Part shown: positions 1,388-33,159 of the stretch, piece after piece
Numbering within the stretch: the stretch's first letter is position 1
Layout: every line of letters starts with the position of its first letter
Assembly: GCA_013416795.1 (NCBI GenBank)
Contig: RQSC01000030.1
Coordinates: 318,369-353,283, forward strand
DNA: 34,915 nucleotides
Source of the DNA: Prasinococcaceae sp. CCMP 1430
Lineage: Eukaryota > Prasinodermophyta > Palmophyllophyceae > Prasinococcales > Prasinococcaceae
Direction: 5' to 3'
Translations under genes and position numbers: made by a program
The notes under the pieces: model-generated
The model's input: the letters and a program-made list of their open reading frames with translations, nothing else
What the model was told of the DNA's origin: nothing
Databases searched by the model: none

Positions 1388-1867
1388 CTAACCGGAGGTG
1401 TGCGCGCGTCTGAGCAGCGCCGCGGCGGCCCCGACGCGGTCATGCGCGTCCCACCGGTGGGCAGATTCCTCGGCGAGTTGGAGCGCCGTGCGGCCGTCGG
1501 CATTGCGGGCGGATGCGTCGGCGCCCGCCTCGAGCAGCACCAGCACGCAGTCGGCGGAGCCGCGTCTGCCGGCGCGGTGCAAGGGTGTGTTGCCCTCGAC
1601 GTCAGCCTTCTCAATGTCGGCGCCCGCCTCGAGCAGCAGCCGCACGCAGTCGGGAGAGTCCCAGCCAGCTGCGAAGTGAAGAGGCGTCTCGCCGTCCACA
1701 TTAGCCTTGTCCTTTTCGGCGCCCGCCTCGAGCAGCAGTCGCACGCAGTCGGCGCTGCTGCCTTCTGCTCCCGGGGCGCACTTTTTTGTCGGCCACAAAA
1801 AAGTCACGCGTCGCCCGCGCCGCGTCGCGCTCTCTTTGCGCGCGCGCGAAAAGAGCGCCGCTGTCAC
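1388..1867 (-). CDS. Ankyrin-repeat protein fragment (3' exon)
   Basis: The minus-strand frame encodes about three and a half ankyrin repeats with the consensus DCVRLLLEAGA..DKA...G.TPLH.AA, followed by a divergent last repeat (TALQLAEES) and a short tail ending RRAHTSG before the stop at 1388. The repeats begin abruptly in mid-repeat near position 1763, beside several AG dinucleotides (around 1763-1775) that could be a splice acceptor. The upstream part of the frame is Arg-rich, has no ATG and looks non-coding. Ankyrin repeats mediate protein-protein contacts; no partner can be inferred. It may be the last exon of a longer gene or a decayed copy related to the gene at 5700-6965. Confidence 0.6.
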   Translation of the reverse strand: MTAALFSRARKESATRRGRRVTFLWPTKKCAPGAEGSSADCVRLLLEAGAEKDKANVDGETPLHFAAGWDSPDCVRLLLEAGADIEKADVEGNTPLHRAGRRGSADCVLVLLEAGADASARNADGRTALQLAEESAHRWDAHDRVGAAAALLRRAHTSG

Positions 1868-5093: not shown

Positions 5094-5418
5094 GGCGGTG
5101 GGTGGGGGCGACACCGGGGTCTCGGCTTTGGTCACTGGGAGGCGCTTGTTGGCCGGCGCCGACGGTGCGTGGATGCGCCCGCCCGCCCCGAGGCGCCCGC
5201 CCCGTCTGTGGCGCCCGCGGCGCCGCGGCGGCGTCCAATCGGCGCGGAGGCGAGCGAGAGCACCCCAGGCACGCGTGCGCGAGCATGCCCATTTTTTGGC
5301 AGGGCGGCAATTGATCGTCATAGATAACTCAACATATTCCATTCGTTTGGGTCGGCGAGCACCACACCGCTCGACTCGCCACGTTCTAGAGCTCCTGGAA
5401 GCTTAGTCCGCACGCCGT
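5094..5418. other. Intergenic region upstream of the tetraspan gene
   Basis: This holds the presumed promoter of the minus-strand tetraspan gene. An AT-richer patch at about 5290-5345 (TTTTTTGG, ATAACTCAACATATTCC) stands out. No gene seen. Confidence 0.5.
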
Positions 5419-5502
5419 TCACGCCGCCTCCTTGAGAGCGGTCATGTACTCCCCAAGGGCCCACAGAGGGAAGATGTTCCTGTACTGCGCGTAGGTGATC
5501 AT
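5419..5502 (-). CDS. Orphan terminal exon or 27-residue ORF of unknown function
   Basis: On the minus strand an ATG at 5502 opens 27 codons to a TGA at 5419, starting MITYAQYRNIF and ending EYMTALKEAA. The amino-acid mix (Tyr, Asn, Phe, Trp, Ile, Met) is unlike the Arg/Pro/Ala noise typical of random frames in this DNA, and CTCGCAG directly before the ATG is a good splice acceptor. I read it as the last exon of a minus-strand gene whose other exons are missing. The ambiguous base at 5540 lies 38 bp upstream, so the rest may have been lost at an assembly join. I do not recognise the family. Confidence 0.4.
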   Translation of the reverse strand: MITYAQYRNIFPLWALGEYMTALKEAA

Positions 5503-5539
5503 GCTGCGAGATCCGCGCGGGCGCGCCCGTCAGCGGCGA

Positions 5540-5699: not shown

Positions 5700-6965
5700 A
5701 TGGCCCACGCGGGCGGCGGCAGCGGAGGAGCGGGAGGAGCGGGAGGAGCGGGAGGCTCAGGCGACGCGCCGCGGCGCGCGCGCAAGGCGCTGCTGCTGGC
5801 CACGCAGGCGCTCGGCGCGATGGGCGAGGCGTGGGCGGAGCGCGATGCCCTCAGGGACGAGATCCAATGGGCCAGAGAGATAAGGTGCCACGGAGCGACC
5901 GAGCGAGCTGGCGCGACGGACGCCCCGCGCGCCGCGGACCGCGGCGCCGGCAACCGGGCGCTGCTTCCGGATGCCCCTCCTTGCGCGGCGTCGGCGGAGC
6001 GCGCGCACCAGGCGCTGCTACTGGTCACGCAGGCATTGGGCGTGAGCGCCGACGCCGTGCGGGAGGCGCGCGCCGAGCGCGACGCGGCCCAGGAGGAGCA
6101 CGACCGGTGCATAGAGGCTCTACACGGGGAGCTGTTACTCTGGCATGCGGTCAGGGACGGCGCGGATATCGCCCTCCGGAACGCGCTGTCGCGCGGCGCG
6201 AATGCGGACGCAGAGATCGTTGCGGGCCCCTACACGCTGTCGAACGCCACGTACTGGCAATATCAGAGCATAGGGTTTGCTGGCACCGCCCTGGGCCTCG
6301 CGGCGCGCGAGGGCAGCCTCGGCTGCCTGCGGCTGCTGCTCGCTGCCGGCGCCGACAGGGACAAGGCGGACCGCCTCAGAGGCTGGACGCCCCTGCATCG
6401 CGCGGCTCGGAGCCGGAGGGCGGACTCGCTGCGGCTGCTGATTGAGGCGGGCGCCGACGTGGACAAGGCCAACCTCGACGGGTCGACGCCCCTGCATCAG
6501 GCGGCCAAGCGCGACAGCGCCGAGTGCCTGCGGCCGCTGCTGGAGGCCGGCGCCGACGTGGACAAGCCAAACAGCGGCGGGTCGACAGCGCTGCACCACG
6601 CAGCGTTGCGCGAAAACGCCGAATGCCTGCGGGCGCTGCTGGAGGCCGGCGCCGACGTGGACAAGGCCAACCGACACGGGTGCACGCCCTTGCATCACGC
6701 GGCGGCGCGCGACAGCGACGACTGCCTGCGGCTGCTGCTCGAGGCCGGCGCCGACGAGCACAGGGCGGCCTTCGACGGCTCGACGCCGCTGCACCACGCG
6801 GCGCGGTACGGCGGCGCGGACTGCGTGCGGCTGCTGCTCGAGGCCGGCGCCGTCGCGTCCGCTTGCGACGATTTCGGCGACACGCCGCTCGACCTCGCCG
6901 AACGCAACAAGCACAAGGAGGCCGCAGCGCTGCTGCGCCCGTATGCCGCCCCCGGCGCGCCGTAG
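5700..6965 (+). CDS. Ankyrin-repeat protein with duplicated N-terminal coiled-coil module
   Basis: A single-exon gene from ATG 5700, 421 aa. After a Gly/Ala-rich start come two related helical modules: residues about 25-56 (ARKALLLATQALG...AERDAL) and about 100-140 (AHQALLLVTQALG...AERDAAQEE), an internal duplication separated by a charged, Ala-rich linker. From about residue 190 there are seven ankyrin repeats of the form TPLHxAAxRxxxxCLRxLLEAGADVDKAxxxGS; the first and last are degenerate. The repeats are very similar at DNA level (CTGGAGGCCGGCGCCGACG recurs), pointing to recent repeat expansion. The likely role is a binding scaffold; no enzymatic domain or membrane segment is visible. It resembles the fragment at 1388-1867, so the two may belong to one local family. 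Confidence 0.85.
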   Translation: MAHAGGGSGGAGGAGGAGGSGDAPRRARKALLLATQALGAMGEAWAERDALRDEIQWAREIRCHGATERAGATDAPRAADRGAGNRALLPDAPPCAASAERAHQALLLVTQALGVSADAVREARAERDAAQEEHDRCIEALHGELLLWHAVRDGADIALRNALSRGANADAEIVAGPYTLSNATYWQYQSIGFAGTALGLAAREGSLGCLRLLLAAGADRDKADRLRGWTPLHRAARSRRADSLRLLIEAGADVDKANLDGSTPLHQAAKRDSAECLRPLLEAGADVDKPNSGGSTALHHAALRENAECLRALLEAGADVDKANRHGCTPLHHAAARDSDDCLRLLLEAGADEHRAAFDGSTPLHHAARYGGADCVRLLLEAGAVASACDDFGDTPLDLAERNKHKEAAALLRPYAAPGAP

Positions 6966-22963: not shown

Positions 22964-23803
22964 CCGCACACCTCCGCGGCCGGACCTCTCTACCGTCGCC
23001 GCTGACGTCTCGCCGCGAACATCTCCGCGCCGTCACCTCCGCCAAGGGCACGAACCCCGCGGGCGCCGCTCGGCAGGGCGCAACGTGGCGTGGCGGGGCA
23101 GGCGCCGCGCTCTCGCGCCCCCCCCGGGCAGCGCGCGGCGCGCCCGCCGCCTTCTGCGACGCGGGACGCGGCGGGTCGCTACGGCCGCAGCGGCAGCGGC
23201 CTCTCGCACGCAGGCGGGTGAGCGGCACGCGTCGGCGGAGTGTGTGTGTGGTGGTGGTGTGTGTGTGTGGGCGGGTGACACAGCGCGCCTGCCGCGCACT
23301 CTGGCGCGCGCGTTCTCGCGCGCTCGCCCGCCCGCCATCAAAACGCATCCCAACGGCCCCCTCGCCTCCTCGCATGCATTCTGATGGAGAAGTTCAGCGC
23401 AGAGAAACCGCGCGAAAATCACATCAAAATGCAAGGCGTGATTGTCCCCGCTGGGACGGATACGTACGTTCCAGCTCCCCCCAAGCTGGCTCCCCCCCCC
23501 GCATGCAAAGTGGTGTAGGGCGGCGGATTCCAGTGCGCTGGCGGGGGAAGCCATTTTGACCTGAAAATGCATAATGAGGAACCCTCTCGTCCAAAATGTG
23601 ACCTTTTTGCACCTTCAGTATCCGAATTAACCTCAAATCACTGTTAGGGTACCAAACGCGTGTTCCCCGACGCGCGCGGGCGCGGCGGACCCGAATCGCG
23701 CCGCGGGCGCTGCGCAGCGGCGCAGCGCGGCGCGGCGGCGCGTGCGCGCCGCGCGGCCGCCACTGCGCGCGTGGAAGGGGGGGCATGGGCGAGAGGGGGG
23801 GGG
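22964..23803. other. Divergent intergenic region (ZRANB3-like / zinc-finger gene)
   Basis: No gene is supported. It contains a GT microsatellite (about 23240-23271), TCAAAATGCA (23424-23433), a related TGAAAATGCA (23562-23571) beside an inverted CATTTTGA (23552-23559), and an AT-richer patch at 23560-23660. This probably carries promoters for both flanking genes. Confidence 0.55.
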
Positions 23804-24660
23804 ATGGGGGGTTTTCGCGCAGGATCTGCCGCGGACATCAACGACAAGCTCGACAAGCTCGAGCAGATTCTGAGCCAGCTGAGCCAGCGGAACGAGGGCC
23901 TGATTGCAGCGCTGAAGAGCACCACAGGAGGCACACACCCCACCGTCACCACAGGCGAGGGGGAGCCCACAGGCGCACGCGGGCCCTCAGGCGCACGCGG
24001 GCCCGCACAGCGCACGCCGCCCACAGCTGAGAGCGGCATCCTGGCCACCGGCGGTGAGGACGTCGGGTTCGATCTGAGAACTGCTACGAAGGAGAGCATT
24101 GGCCAGCTTGTTGGGTGCAGGGTGAACATCTACAAGCGTAAGGCCACGTGCATTCATGTGTACTGCGTCGCCAGAAGGACTCAGTCTTGCAACTTCGCCG
24201 CCGTCGTAAATCAGAAAGGCGACGTGCACGTGAAGGTGTGTCAGCGCGCGCGCACGCCACCTCACCGCCTGCGCGCGCGCGTCCACGTGCGCATGCAACT
24301 GGCTGCTGATACAACCACCACAGAGACGGCATGCAGATTCGTGCAACGGTGGCGCAGGCATCCCGTTCGACGTGAAGCCGTCCGAGCGGACGAGGCTCTT
24401 CGCTGGCCACCCCAAGCTCCTACAGGCCTGCTACGCGCACGTCCAGCACGGGCGCGGTATGTCTGATGTCTGGAAAGAGATAAGTGCAGGCAAGCACAAG
24501 CGTGAGGACCTGCCTCGGCGCAACTCCGGGGAGTGGTGGGCGTGGAGGAAGCAGGCCGAATCCTGGATCGCTCGCGCGCGCGTGCACGTGCGCATGCAAC
24601 TGGCTGCTGATACAACCACCACAGACACGGCATGCAGTCCCCGCTAATTCTTGCCTCTAG
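23804..24660 (+). CDS. Putative FLYWCH/WRKY-type zinc-finger protein with introner-like introns
   Basis: Three exons are proposed: 23804-24235, 24324-24581 and 24625-24660, about 241 aa from ATG 23804. Both introns are GT-AG (GTGTGT...CACAG and GTGCAC...CACAG). The first is needed because the coding frame changes across it. Near the N-terminus is a short coiled coil (INDKLDKLEQILSQLSQ), then a Gly/Pro-rich linker. A Cys/His-rich module, CVARRTQSCNF ... DVHVK|RRHADSC, has the C-x6-C ... H-x3-C spacing of FLYWCH/WRKY-like fingers, a fold common in DNA-binding domains of MULE-type transposases. Exon 2 adds a basic, Trp-containing region (GEWWAWRKQAESW). If intron 2 is retained, the frame still closes at 24647 with a similar length. 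Transposon-derived origin is possible; function is unknown. Confidence 0.5.
24272..24336 (+). repeat. 65-bp direct repeat, copy 1 (3' part of intron 1)
   Basis: It matches 24573-24637 at 63 of 65 positions (differences at 24283 and 24325). It covers the 3' part of intron 1, its CACAG acceptor and the first 13 nt of exon 2. Confidence 0.9.
24573..24637 (+). repeat. 65-bp direct repeat, copy 2 (putative intron 2)
   Basis: Second copy, 301 bp downstream. It spans the whole proposed 43-bp intron 2, its acceptor and the following 13 nt. Directly after the gene, ACTAGTACTA occurs twice (24665-24686). Confidence 0.9.
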
Positions 24661-28924: not shown

Positions 28925-31900
28925 TCACACCACGAGCTCCCGCCGCGACTCGAGGCGCTTGAGCACCTCGCTGGGCGTCGCGTCGAGCTGCTCGGCGATG
29001 GACCTCTGCTGGTCGCGGCCGAGCGCGGCGTACTGCTCGCAGAGGTCGCCGTCGATGACGTCCTTGACGGGCGCGAAGTACGAGCGGTACCGCAGGTGGT
29101 CGTTGCCGCACAGCGGCGGCCCGGCCTGGCGCATGTGCATCTCGAGGTGGCTGAAGAAGTCGACCTCCTCGCGATTCAGGAAGGGCGTCATGGCGCCCAG
29201 CGCGCCGCCCACGGTGGCGTACAGCAGCGACTGCGTGCCGCCGGCCTGCATCTCCGCGCGCTGGATGGCCGTCACGGTGTCGCCCACGTGGAACATGGTG
29301 GCGCACTCGATCTTGTGCGGCGCGCCGTTGAGCCGCTCGGGCCCGCGCTTGGACGACCCGCCGGTGGGGTCCTCCTCGGCGACGCCCGACACCTCGGCGG
29401 GCAGCCGCACGACGAACATGTTGCCGAAGCGGTCGCCGCCCGCCATCGTGTCGTAGTCGACGTACTCGGCGGCCGTCAGGTAGCGCGGCGCGGTGTCGTC
29501 GGCGAACACGTGCAGCTGGTTCTCCGCCGCGCGGTACAGCCCGTAGTGGAAGCTCTCCTGGCCGTCGCCCACGTAGACGCGGTCGCCCTGCGCGTGCAGC
29601 GTCTTGATGAAGGTGGGGATGGCGCGGTTCTCGCACTTGCGCAGCAGCTTCTTCTTGCCCATGTCGTACAGGCGCAGGTGGGAGTCGACGCCCGCCAGCA
29701 GCCTCCCCTGGAAGGCGCACAGCGCGCCGACGACCCCGCCCACCTCCGTCGAGTGCAGGTGCTCCAGGCGCTTGCCCTCGTCCTCGAAGCGGTACAGCCG
29801 CACGTGGCCGGTGCGGCACGACCGCGGCGCGAACGACAGCCCCGTGGCGGTGCCCACCGCCAGCAGCGTGCCCTCGCCGCCGCCGCCGCCGCCGAAGCGC
29901 ACCGTGCACGCGCACAGCGCGGCCTCCCCCTCGCCCAGCTCGACCTTGCAGGTGGTCTCGCCGTCCGAGGCCATCACGCGCACGCACGACACCCACGCGC
30001 CCTTCTCCGCGCGCGGCTCGCCCAGCTGGTCGTCCGCCAGCTCGCCGGCGGACGACGCCAGGTCTCAGCGCTCTACGTCCCTGGCGACCTTTGCGGACTC
30101 GATAAGGCGATCGGGATACGACGCGGCTGGGAGGTGGGTACCGGCTGCGACACGCTGGCACTGAGCCTGTCGTGTAGCGCCGTACTAGGGATCGCGCAGG
30201 AATATCCCGCGGTCGCGTGGGCCTTGTGGCGCGAGACGGCGGTGCAGGCGGGAATCACCGCGGAATGGCTGGTCGGCTTGGGCCGACGCGAACGAGGCCA
30301 TCACGCGCACGCACGACACCCACGCGCCCTTCTCCGCGCGCGGCTCGCCCAGCTGGTCGTCCGCCAGCTCGCCGGCGGCCCCGCCGGCGGCCCCGTCGGC
30401 GGCCGTGTCCATCATCTGCGCGGCGTCCGCGCCGCCGCCGGCGGCGCCCGCCTGCCGGCTCGCCTCCTTGCGCAGCTCCGCGCGGCGCTCGGCGCTGGGC
30501 GCCCGGTGGTCGGCCTCGACCACCACCAGCGTCTTGTGCTTGGGGTGGTGGCACATGGCGCGCGGCGTGTACTGCAGGGGCGTGCTCGACGCGTTGAACG
30601 CCTCGCCCAGCCGCTCGAGCGTCAGGATGCGCAGCTCGTCGCCCGCCGTGGCGACCACGCCCTCCTGGCACTGGCTCGAGCAGAACGCCGAGGTCGAGTC
30701 CAGCGCGTCGTAGGACAGCGGCGCGAGCTGGAAGCGGCCCTGCCACGCGTAGCCGCACCACGGCCGCGCCGAGAGGGCCATCAGCGCGGGGCGGCCGCGC
30801 ACGACGGTGCGCGACAGCTGCGGCGCGCGCGCGCCGAGGAAGCGGGTGCGCACGTCCGACAGCGCGCCGGTGGCGGGGTCGACCTCGGCGCGCAGCAGCA
30901 CGCCGTTGGCGAGGCCCACGTTGAGGAACAGCGTGGGGGGCGCGTCGGCGGTCCCCTCGAAGGGGAACAGGCACACGCTCTCGGGCAGCGCGGGCGCGGC
31001 CTGCGTCGCCTTCGGGTGGAACATCTCGGCGGGGTCGAGGGAGAAGAGGCGCACCGTCGAGTCGTACGCGCCCACGGCGAAGAACGCCGACCGCCTGCTG
31101 CCCTCGGCGAGCGGCGCGATGTCCAGCGCGGCGACGTCGCCCGCCAGGTCGCGCCGCTCCACCTCCGCGAGCGTGCCGAGCGTGTCCAGCTCGAAGTACA
31201 CCAGCTCGCCGCCCGACATGGCCACCACCACCTGGCCGGCGTTGGCCGCGACCTTGGACACGCGCTTGCGCCCGGGCGCCGCCCACTCCACCAGGCTGCC
31301 GTTCGTGCGCACGTGGCGCAGGCCGCCGGCGTGCACCTGCAGCATGGAGCCGTCCGACAGCAGCTGCACGTGCAGGGTGGCGACGTCGCCCTTCAGGCCC
31401 GAGTCGCTCACCTCGGCGACGGTGTCGCCCACCGCGAGCACCAGCGTGCCGTTGGTGAAGCTCACCACGATGTACTTGTCCTCGGCCGCGTCGACGCCCT
31501 TGCGCACCGTCCACACGCCCGTGGGGGTGCCGGGCAGCGGCGAGCGCGCGAGCTCGGACACGCTCAGACCGGGGCGCATCACGCGCAACGACGAGCGGTG
31601 CCCGCGGCCGCAGAGGGCGTACACCTGCTTGGTGTCCTCGTTGTGCAGGTTCTCCACCTTCATCGCGGTCACCGGGCTGAGGCTCTCCACCTCGTCCACC
31701 AGCGCCAGGTTCTTCAGGGGGCGGGGCGTGAAGAACACGGGCTCGAAGCCGCCCTCGGTCTCGACCAGCTGCTTGGACGAGCACTTCACGTCGGCGGCGT
31801 CGCCGATGCCGGCGAACGAGTAGAAGCCGTGGTTGCCCATCTCCGACGCCGCGAAGAGGTGGCCGTTCTTGAGGATGGCGAGCGCGCTGCAGGTGGGGAT

Positions 31901-33159
31901 GGTGTCGAAGTAGAGGATCTCGAGCTCGGTCACCTTGCTGTCCTCGCCGTACTCGAGCGAGACCTTGTACACGTCGCCGTACTCGCTCTGCACCAGGAAG
32001 AAGAACAGGCCCTTCTGCCTGTGCAGCGAGGCCGCCGTGATGAGGCAGCCGCGCTCGGGCGGCAGGTCCTTGCGGCGGGGGATGACCGCGCGCACGTCGG
32101 CGTGGTCGCGGTTCTTGTATATTATGAAGTTTTCGGCGCACACCACCACGCCCGAGGGGCCGTCGCCGCCGCCCGGCACCGCCAGCACCAGGTTCGCGCC
32201 GTTGTCGACGGGGTCCGACCACACGCGGCTCACGTGGTTCAGGCTGAGGTCGAGCTCGTAGTACACGAGCGACTTCTGCGCCGCGCGGGCAGCGCTGCCG
32301 GTGGGGTCGGCGTCGGCCTCGGCGTGGTCCAGCTCGATCGCGGCGAACACGGGGTTCTCGTAGCCCACGTCGAGCGCGCACAGCGCGAAGGTGATGGTCG
32401 CCGTCTTGTGCGCCTCGAGGGGCGACGAGATGGTCAGGCGCGCCTCGCCGTCCCGGTTGAAGACGTACACCATCTTCTGCTTCTCAAGGGCCGCCAGCAT
32501 GCACGCGCGGCCCTTCGGGTCGCTCGCCGTGAACTGCGATCGGGGGCGCCAGGCAGAGGGCGCGGGCGCGGGGGGTCAGAGGGCGCTCGCACAGGGCGCG
32601 CGCGCGCGGGCGGCCGCCGGGATCGCTTGCGCGCAGAGTCCGCCATGGTTTAGGGTTGGAACGGGAAAGTTCCAGCGCGCGAGCGCGCGAGCGCTTCCCC
32701 CCACCACCCCCACCCTCCCGACCGCCCCTCCCCAGCCGCTCCTTCCCCTCCTCTTCCACCGGAGCGCACGATCGGGGCGCGGGCGGCGACCGCGATGCGC
32801 CTCACCTCGCCCGGGACGATCCGCCTGCATCCCGACTTGCCGAACGTCTCCTGGTGCAGCTTCTCGAAGCCGTTCTTGTCGGCGTTGAACTCGAGCACGA
32901 CGATGCGCCCCGAGTCGGAGCCGACGACGAGCTGGTCCTTCTCCCCGCCCGTGAGGCGAAGGGGGGCGAGCGAGCGCACGCATCCGAACACCTCCACGGA
33001 GCACACGCTCTGCACGCGCCCCTGCTCGTCGGGCCGCAGCAGCTCCAGCGTCTTGCCGCGCGCGACGACGACCTCGTGCGCCTTCGCGCCCGAGAAGTTG
33101 CCGTACGCGGCGCCCGTCACGGCGCCCGCCGGCTGCAGCGTGAGGTTGTACAGGAACAT
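28925..33159 (-). CDS. SF3B3: Splicing factor 3B subunit 3 (SF3b130, CPSF_A family)
   Basis: U2 snRNP component that holds the SF3b complex together at the branch site. Exon 1 is 33159-32806 (MFLYNLTLQPAGAV ... KSGCRRIVPGE, donor GTGAGG). Exon 2 starts at 32533 (CGCAG|TTC, FTASDPKGRACMLAALEKQK). It continues through the WD-like beta-propellers with hallmark blocks RLTISSPLEAHK, NDPTG-type ADPTGSAA, PGGGDGPSGVV, FFTPRPLKNLALVDE and LNGVLLR-type VGLANGVLLR. The C-terminal CPSF_A part has YDMGKKKLLRKCEN, FADDTAPRYLTAAEYVDYDT, DRFGNMFVVRLP and VIDGDLCEQY, ending at 28925. A 241-bp insert with flanking 86-bp repeats interrupts it at 29966-30378. A GT-AG intron (30258-30064, CGCG|GTGATT ... CTGAG|ACC) would keep frame but leave about 35 extra residues, with ELADDQLGEPRAEKG present twice. 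Total about 1255 aa. Confidence 0.93.
29966..30051. repeat. 86-bp direct repeat, copy A, within SF3B3
   Basis: Identical to 30293-30378 (offset 327). On the minus strand both copies encode GELADDQLGEPRAEKG..VSCVRVMAS in the SF3B3 frame; related proteins have this segment once. Confidence 0.92.
30052..30292. mobile_element. 241-bp insert between the SF3B3 repeats, candidate intron-forming insertion
   Basis: Unique sequence with more mixed composition than its surroundings. On the minus strand it has in-frame stops but also a usable donor (30258) and acceptor (30065-30064). On the plus strand a frame is open across all of it (for example GWEVGTGCDTLALSLSCSAV), of no recognised family. No terminal inverted repeats were noticed. 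Calling it mobile is an inference from the flanking duplication. Confidence 0.3.
30293..30378. repeat. 86-bp direct repeat, copy B, within SF3B3
   Basis: Copy adjoining the upstream SF3B3 coding sequence; see 29966-30051. The coding frame runs into it directly from exon 2. Confidence 0.92.

Follow-up and report, generated by a model that had tools for sequence, protein, structure and literature searches.

How new spliceosomal introns originate is an old open question, most cases being either unrecognisable or part of large introner families. The locus described here raises it on a small scale: is a short, near-identical repeat at an exon–intron border the trace of an introner, and which of its copies are introns? 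The window, the whole stretch of 34,915 nucleotides that was analysed, corresponds to C77:318369-353283 in an assembly of 24.5 Mb and 145 contigs (labelled C77, C78 and so on), and its G+C content is ~70%. Within it, positions 24272-24336 and 24573-24637, lying 301 bp apart, agree without gaps at 63 of 65 positions, just as an earlier note on this DNA had reported. The left ten bases of this 65-bp repeat are a CG run that carries little information, but over its right 40 bases the sequence is complex. With a 26-mer taken from the non-simple 3' part, a genome search at up to 3 mismatches found three forward matches and none in a backwards control, so the repeat is real rather than a product of chance. 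Both copies read ...CACCACAG followed by 13 nt (AGACGGCATGCAG in copy 1, ACACGGCATGCAG in copy 2), and RVHVRMQLAADTTTT reads in both alike. The features of the locus, all given in window coordinates, are as follows:

23840-24235, forward strand: coding sequence of the host gene (for an orphan protein) upstream of the intron, ending ...NQKGDVHVK; stop-free translation, best coding frame in 24062-24235
24236-24323, forward strand: copy 1, probable complete 88-nt GT-AG intron GTGTGTCAGC...CACCACAG, phase 0; 84/88 identical to C78:313407-313494, and frame join
24236-24245, forward strand: intron 5' end GTGTGTCAGC, for which folding predicts a helix of 10 pairs, G-U included, with GCTGATACAAC close to the 3' end
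24305-24312, forward strand: GCTGATAC, a candidate for the branch-point region, 12-14 nt upstream of the acceptor; proposed from sequence inspection, identical in C78
24324-24336, forward strand: 13 nt of exon (AGACGGCATGCAG) duplicated along with the intron 3' part; common to 24625-24637, absent from C78
24324-24648, forward strand: downstream coding part of the host gene, RRHADSCNGG...SPR, with stop TAA; open frame, best coding frame in 24324-24572
24573-24637, forward strand: copy 2, a fragment comprising 52 nt from the 3' end of the intron (24573-24624) and the 13-nt exon tail (24625-24637); 63/65 identical to 24272-24336

Searching the genome with the repeat unit recovered a third place, C78:313443-313495, and there the similarity extends well beyond the 65-bp repeat. 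Aligned with window positions 24235-24324, the C78 locus is identical at 86 of 90 positions, which comprise the full 88 nt (84/88; C78:313407-313494, on a different contig from the window) and one base on each side. These two extra matching bases are due to chance. The unit therefore begins and ends at splice sites in the 90-nt alignment, as is expected of a transposed intron, and the 13-nt exon tail common to both window copies is absent from C78. Outside the unit, the flanks of the C77 and C78 copies are identical at only 7 of 40 positions upstream and 16 of 40 downstream, with no BLAST match beyond. When the C78 exons are joined, from the sequence before the GT to that after the AG (...VVPTLRVDSVVPQQDIYL running into MKLDVQGYEHEVIRGASKLF...), an FkbM methyltransferase domain (PF05050) spans the junction at 1.3e-7, and for a longer reconstructed protein the values are 1.4e-9 with PF05050 and 1.8e-13 with TIGR01444. 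Taken by itself, the downstream exon gives an FkbM match at 0.0019 only, the upstream exon by itself gives no FkbM domain match, and the translation read through the 88 nt gives no domain match at all. Since removal of the 88 nt restores the FkbM domain, the C78 unit is most probably an intron. Near-identical introns (84/88) thus occupy non-homologous positions in genes with unrelated flanks, a configuration characteristic of introners. With similarity that ends no more than one base from either splice site, and with unrelated flanks, the comparison points to the probable copying of an entire spliceosomal intron from one gene to another, unrelated one.

The copy in the window can be read in the same way from its reading frames. 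The last codon before the copy 1 donor is AAG. By codon statistics, the best coding frame of 24062-24235 ends in GDVHVK and that of 24324-24572 reads RRHADSC..., both being open, and the two join only when 88 nt (1 mod 3) are removed. This bears out the claim, made in the earlier note, that a frame change across copy 1 calls for an intron. The training set for these statistics, the FkbM exon together with two light-harvesting genes, was small (582 codons), and the frame result for copy 1 is accordingly to be taken as support, not proof. Were copy 1 retained, the frame would continue to a TGA at 24464-24466. Both full copies have GT-AG splice sites, and the logic of frame and domain favours their splicing; copy 1 is thus probably spliced in vivo. 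Both insertions, C77 and C78, lie in coding sequence in the sense orientation and in phase 0, and their spliced frames are continuous.

The host protein in C77 is an orphan, having no Pfam or NCBIfam match, and no paralogue of its gene was found in the genome apart from a stretch around the first visible exon: window positions 23733-23942 (L050), which cover the upstream part and that exon, recur as an 84% copy within repeat-rich surroundings at C80:17532-17732, and the orphan gene might have come in together with mobile DNA or close to it. Just upstream of the gene, positions 23453-23535 hold a dispersed non-coding repeat (GTTCCAGCTCCCCCC...GCATGCAAAGTG), with copies of 83-96% identity on C88, C76, C137 and C67. 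A viral origin was considered and rejected, as neither a 24-mer nor the host-gene protein had a match in IMG/VR; a search of Rfam matched no known RNA family. The FkbM gene in C78 likewise has no paralogue in the genome, and neither gain is polarised, there being no paralogue of either gene with which to compare it.

Copy 2 has a different history. It includes none of the first 36 nt of the intron, hence no proper donor, and the coding frame runs open through it to the TAA at 24646-24648. Because 13 nt from the exon that follows copy 1 are part of it, it represents a local duplication rather than an independent insertion, and by its sequence it reads as coding. It does keep the acceptor, and splicing from a cryptic donor is possible in principle. 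Of the four sites that vary between copy 1 and C78, three have the copy 1 base in copy 2 and the fourth has the C78 base. The simplest order of events would therefore place the copying between C77 and C78 first, followed by three substitutions, then the 65-bp duplication and finally one more substitution in copy 1; that transposition preceded local duplication is the order to which parsimony points. The true second intron thus lies on another contig, and the pair seen in the window is one intron and a local fragment of it. Of the introner idea put forward in the earlier note, the part that stands is that copy 1 is an intron with a near-identical full copy in an unrelated gene; the part that falls is that the two window copies were independent insertions. 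Its further proposal of adjacent introns, with one of 43 bp at copy 2, finds no support, the 5' part being missing and the frame open to the TAA. That both window copies are spliced, as introns of 88 and 43 nt, we regard as highly improbable: sequence inspection does show that copy 2 retains the branch-point region and acceptor, with GTGCAC as a possible donor, yet copy 2 has no proper donor, an open frame runs through it to the stop, and the copy 1 exon sequence within it is at odds with an independent insertion.

An introner family should be visible as many copies at exon–intron borders, the check that the earlier note had proposed. Whole-genome pattern and DNA searches instead recovered two full copies and one fragment in 24.5 Mb, a count to be read with the assembly gaps (N), which leave room for a few missed copies of the 88-nt intron. 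Searches with the 5' end, with the 3' end, with the centre of the 5' half, with the two ends separated by a gap and with the entire C78 locus, 3-mismatch and gapped patterns included, all agree. Because the DNA search skips very common words and could miss high-copy families, we also compared ~195 kb all-against-all without filtering, and found no intron-like or introner-like family in it. Comparison of the window with the genome revealed no other introner family either, its matches being an ankyrin gene family, segmental duplicates, low-complexity sequence and one dispersed non-coding repeat. Two further candidates were discarded: an excess of the GTGTGTCAGCGCGCGC pattern over control (256 versus 154) reflects GT/CG-rich simple sequence and no element, and a 40-bp match at C21:64297-64336 is simple sequence rather than a copy. 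The families defined in PMC9860276 have at least 5 copies per genome, above the two full copies and one fragment found here within the limits set by the assembly gaps. For this sequence, a mass invasion is rejected by the DNA, 3-mismatch and gapped searches alike, and a Micromonas-like introner invasion is not supported in this genome; a nascent or dying low-copy introner is possible.

Other repeats in the window are of different kinds. Positions 32593-33012 (420 bp, coding-like in content) are 100% identical to C72:196706-197125 on the other strand and represent a very recent segmental duplicate or transferred piece, and 5229-5539 (311 bp) is a recent duplicate with 99% identity to C51:87270-87580. 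A perfect 86-bp direct repeat with differing flanks occurs at 29966-30051 and 30293-30378, 327 bp apart. Ankyrin-repeat coding sequence at 1396-1769 (reverse strand) and 6300-6900 (forward strand) has many relatives genome-wide, notably in a cluster at C52:56000-64000. As for the organism, the genome yields 22 matches to PF00504, chlorophyll a/b-type light-harvesting proteins, which indicates an alga with a green-type plastid. Two of its LHC proteins have as best match the LHCI chains of the Euglena gracilis photosystem I structure 9vfj, followed by green-plant LHCs; for L063, one of two light-harvesting proteins singled out (L063, L064), the Euglena gracilis LHCI polyprotein units are far the closest among solved LHCs (1.8e-93 versus 2.9e-54).

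The termini and insertion sites bear on the route of copying. Predicted folds have a z of about -2 in both full copies, and the predicted helix would bring the donor beside the candidate branch point. Its 10 pairs are reached by 0.5-0.7% of dinucleotide shuffles; counted as a Watson-Crick inverted repeat, leaving out G-U, the match between the ends has its equal in 2.7% and 6.5% of shuffles and is subterminal, stopping short of the 3' terminus. The full copies are too alike for a covariation test of this helix. No target-site duplication of at least 3 nt flanks either copy, the most being 2 nt in C77 ('AG') and 1 nt in C78 ('G'), a trait shared with fungal introns of the reverse-splicing type (PMC8469720); the 3-9 bp duplications of DNA-transposon-type introners are thus lacking in both, and with n = 2 copies their absence is weak evidence on mechanism. 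The empty site AAG/A in C77 fits a proto-splice site and CTG/A in C78 fits one poorly. Tandem genomic duplication creates an intron bounded by duplicated exonic AGGT, and no direct repeat flanks copy 1.

Taken together, we think it probable that one intron was recently copied between unrelated genes, most plausibly by reverse splicing, and that a 65-bp local duplication followed. This reading builds on what can be taken directly from the sequences, namely the whole-intron identity, the precise boundaries, the unrelated flanks, the restoration of frame and domain in C78 and the copy count. An 88-nt spliceosomal intron would have been copied precisely between the FkbM-family methyltransferase gene in C78 and the orphan gene in C77, in either direction: the excised intron RNA would have entered a transcript, or coding-strand DNA that lay exposed, through reverse splicing at an exonic position, and reverse transcription with subsequent recombination or repair would have fixed it there. 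Exact ends, sense orientation, phase 0 and no duplication beyond 2 nt are what reverse splicing, reverse transcription and recombination would leave. Transposition of introns by reverse splicing is discussed in PMC3443670 and has been proposed for Micromonas in PMC3879977; here it is the likeliest candidate for the route of the copy. Later, ordinary template switching, to which the CGCGCGCG run may have contributed, would have placed a second copy of 65 bp, the intron 3' part and 13 nt of exon, at a distance of 301 bp downstream, and this duplication would have lengthened or replaced the C-terminus of the host protein. We infer both reverse splicing as the route and template switching for copy 2. 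On a variant of this scenario, which strikes us as quite unlikely, the unit is a just-born mobile intron: pairing of the donor with the branch-point region would have disposed an ordinary host intron to reverse splicing, and we would be seeing it at the two-copy stage, ahead of an introner burst or in place of one.

The main rival explanation is a true introner family at very low copy, nascent or nearly extinct, in the form of a small non-autonomous DNA transposon carrying both splice sites. Introners are recognised by near-identical introns in unrelated genes, the ends share a 10-pair inverted match, and some families lack target-site duplications, end-to-end identical ones with neither these nor TIRs being known (PMC9860276). 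We nonetheless hold it to be unlikely, there being two full copies only and no target-site duplication, while the inverted match is subterminal and, when G-U pairs are left out, not significant as a DNA repeat (2.7% and 6.5%); intergenic and antisense copies are also lacking, though n = 2 says little on this point. Very unlikely, in our view, is the capture of a piece of another gene's intron during double-strand-break repair, as an RNA- or DNA-templated patch that was intron-sized by chance. Such repair is a proposed mechanism of intron gain (PMC3443670), and the local 65-bp duplication attests to templated insertion at this very locus, but a random patch would not start and stop within one base of both splice sites; with excised intron RNA as its template, the proposal merges with intron transposition by reverse splicing. 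Local duplication alone, by which the repeat would have nothing to do with introns, explains copy 2 correctly and survives for it; as a complete account it is scarcely tenable and is refuted by the full C78 copy, which sits in an unrelated gene, ends at splice sites and yields a domain upon its removal. A single intron-transposition event is therefore the likely reading, the low copy number setting the intron apart from introner families.

Copied once, recently and from end to end between two unrelated genes, with no target-site duplication, the intron offers a rare, clean case of probable intron transposition outside mass invasion. Four differences in 88 nt mark it as young, and sister strains may still be without one copy, which would make direction, timing and mechanism testable.

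Among known systems, the introners of Micromonas (D-IE and ABC-IE; PMC3879977, PMC4815162, PMC9860276) share with the present intron a green-lineage algal host, sense GT-AG introns and full-length identity between unrelated genes, and the short ABC-IE (64 +/- 7 nt) are of similar size to its 88 nt. Micromonas, however, has 164 to thousands of copies against two here. The introner-like elements and symmetrical sister (stw)introns of Hypoxylaceae (PMC8469720) also insert seamlessly without target-site duplications, and these proliferating fungal (stw)introns likewise have ends able to pair; their inverted repeats are 45-55 nt long and their copies number in the tens, whereas here a 10-pair helix falls short of the acceptor and there are two copies. 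Copy 2 recalls the tandem genomic duplication route (PMC3443670, PMC4974935) in being a local duplication that brings an extra acceptor, but duplication did not make copy 1, and copy 2 finds no support as an intron. In the Oikopleura dioica pairs recounted in PMC3879977 and the Mycosphaerella cases given in PMC3443670, very few near-identical whole introns are attributed to reverse splicing, as we propose for this intron. The members of an Oikopleura pair lie within one gene, whereas the two introns described here, known from DNA alone, occupy unrelated genes on different contigs.
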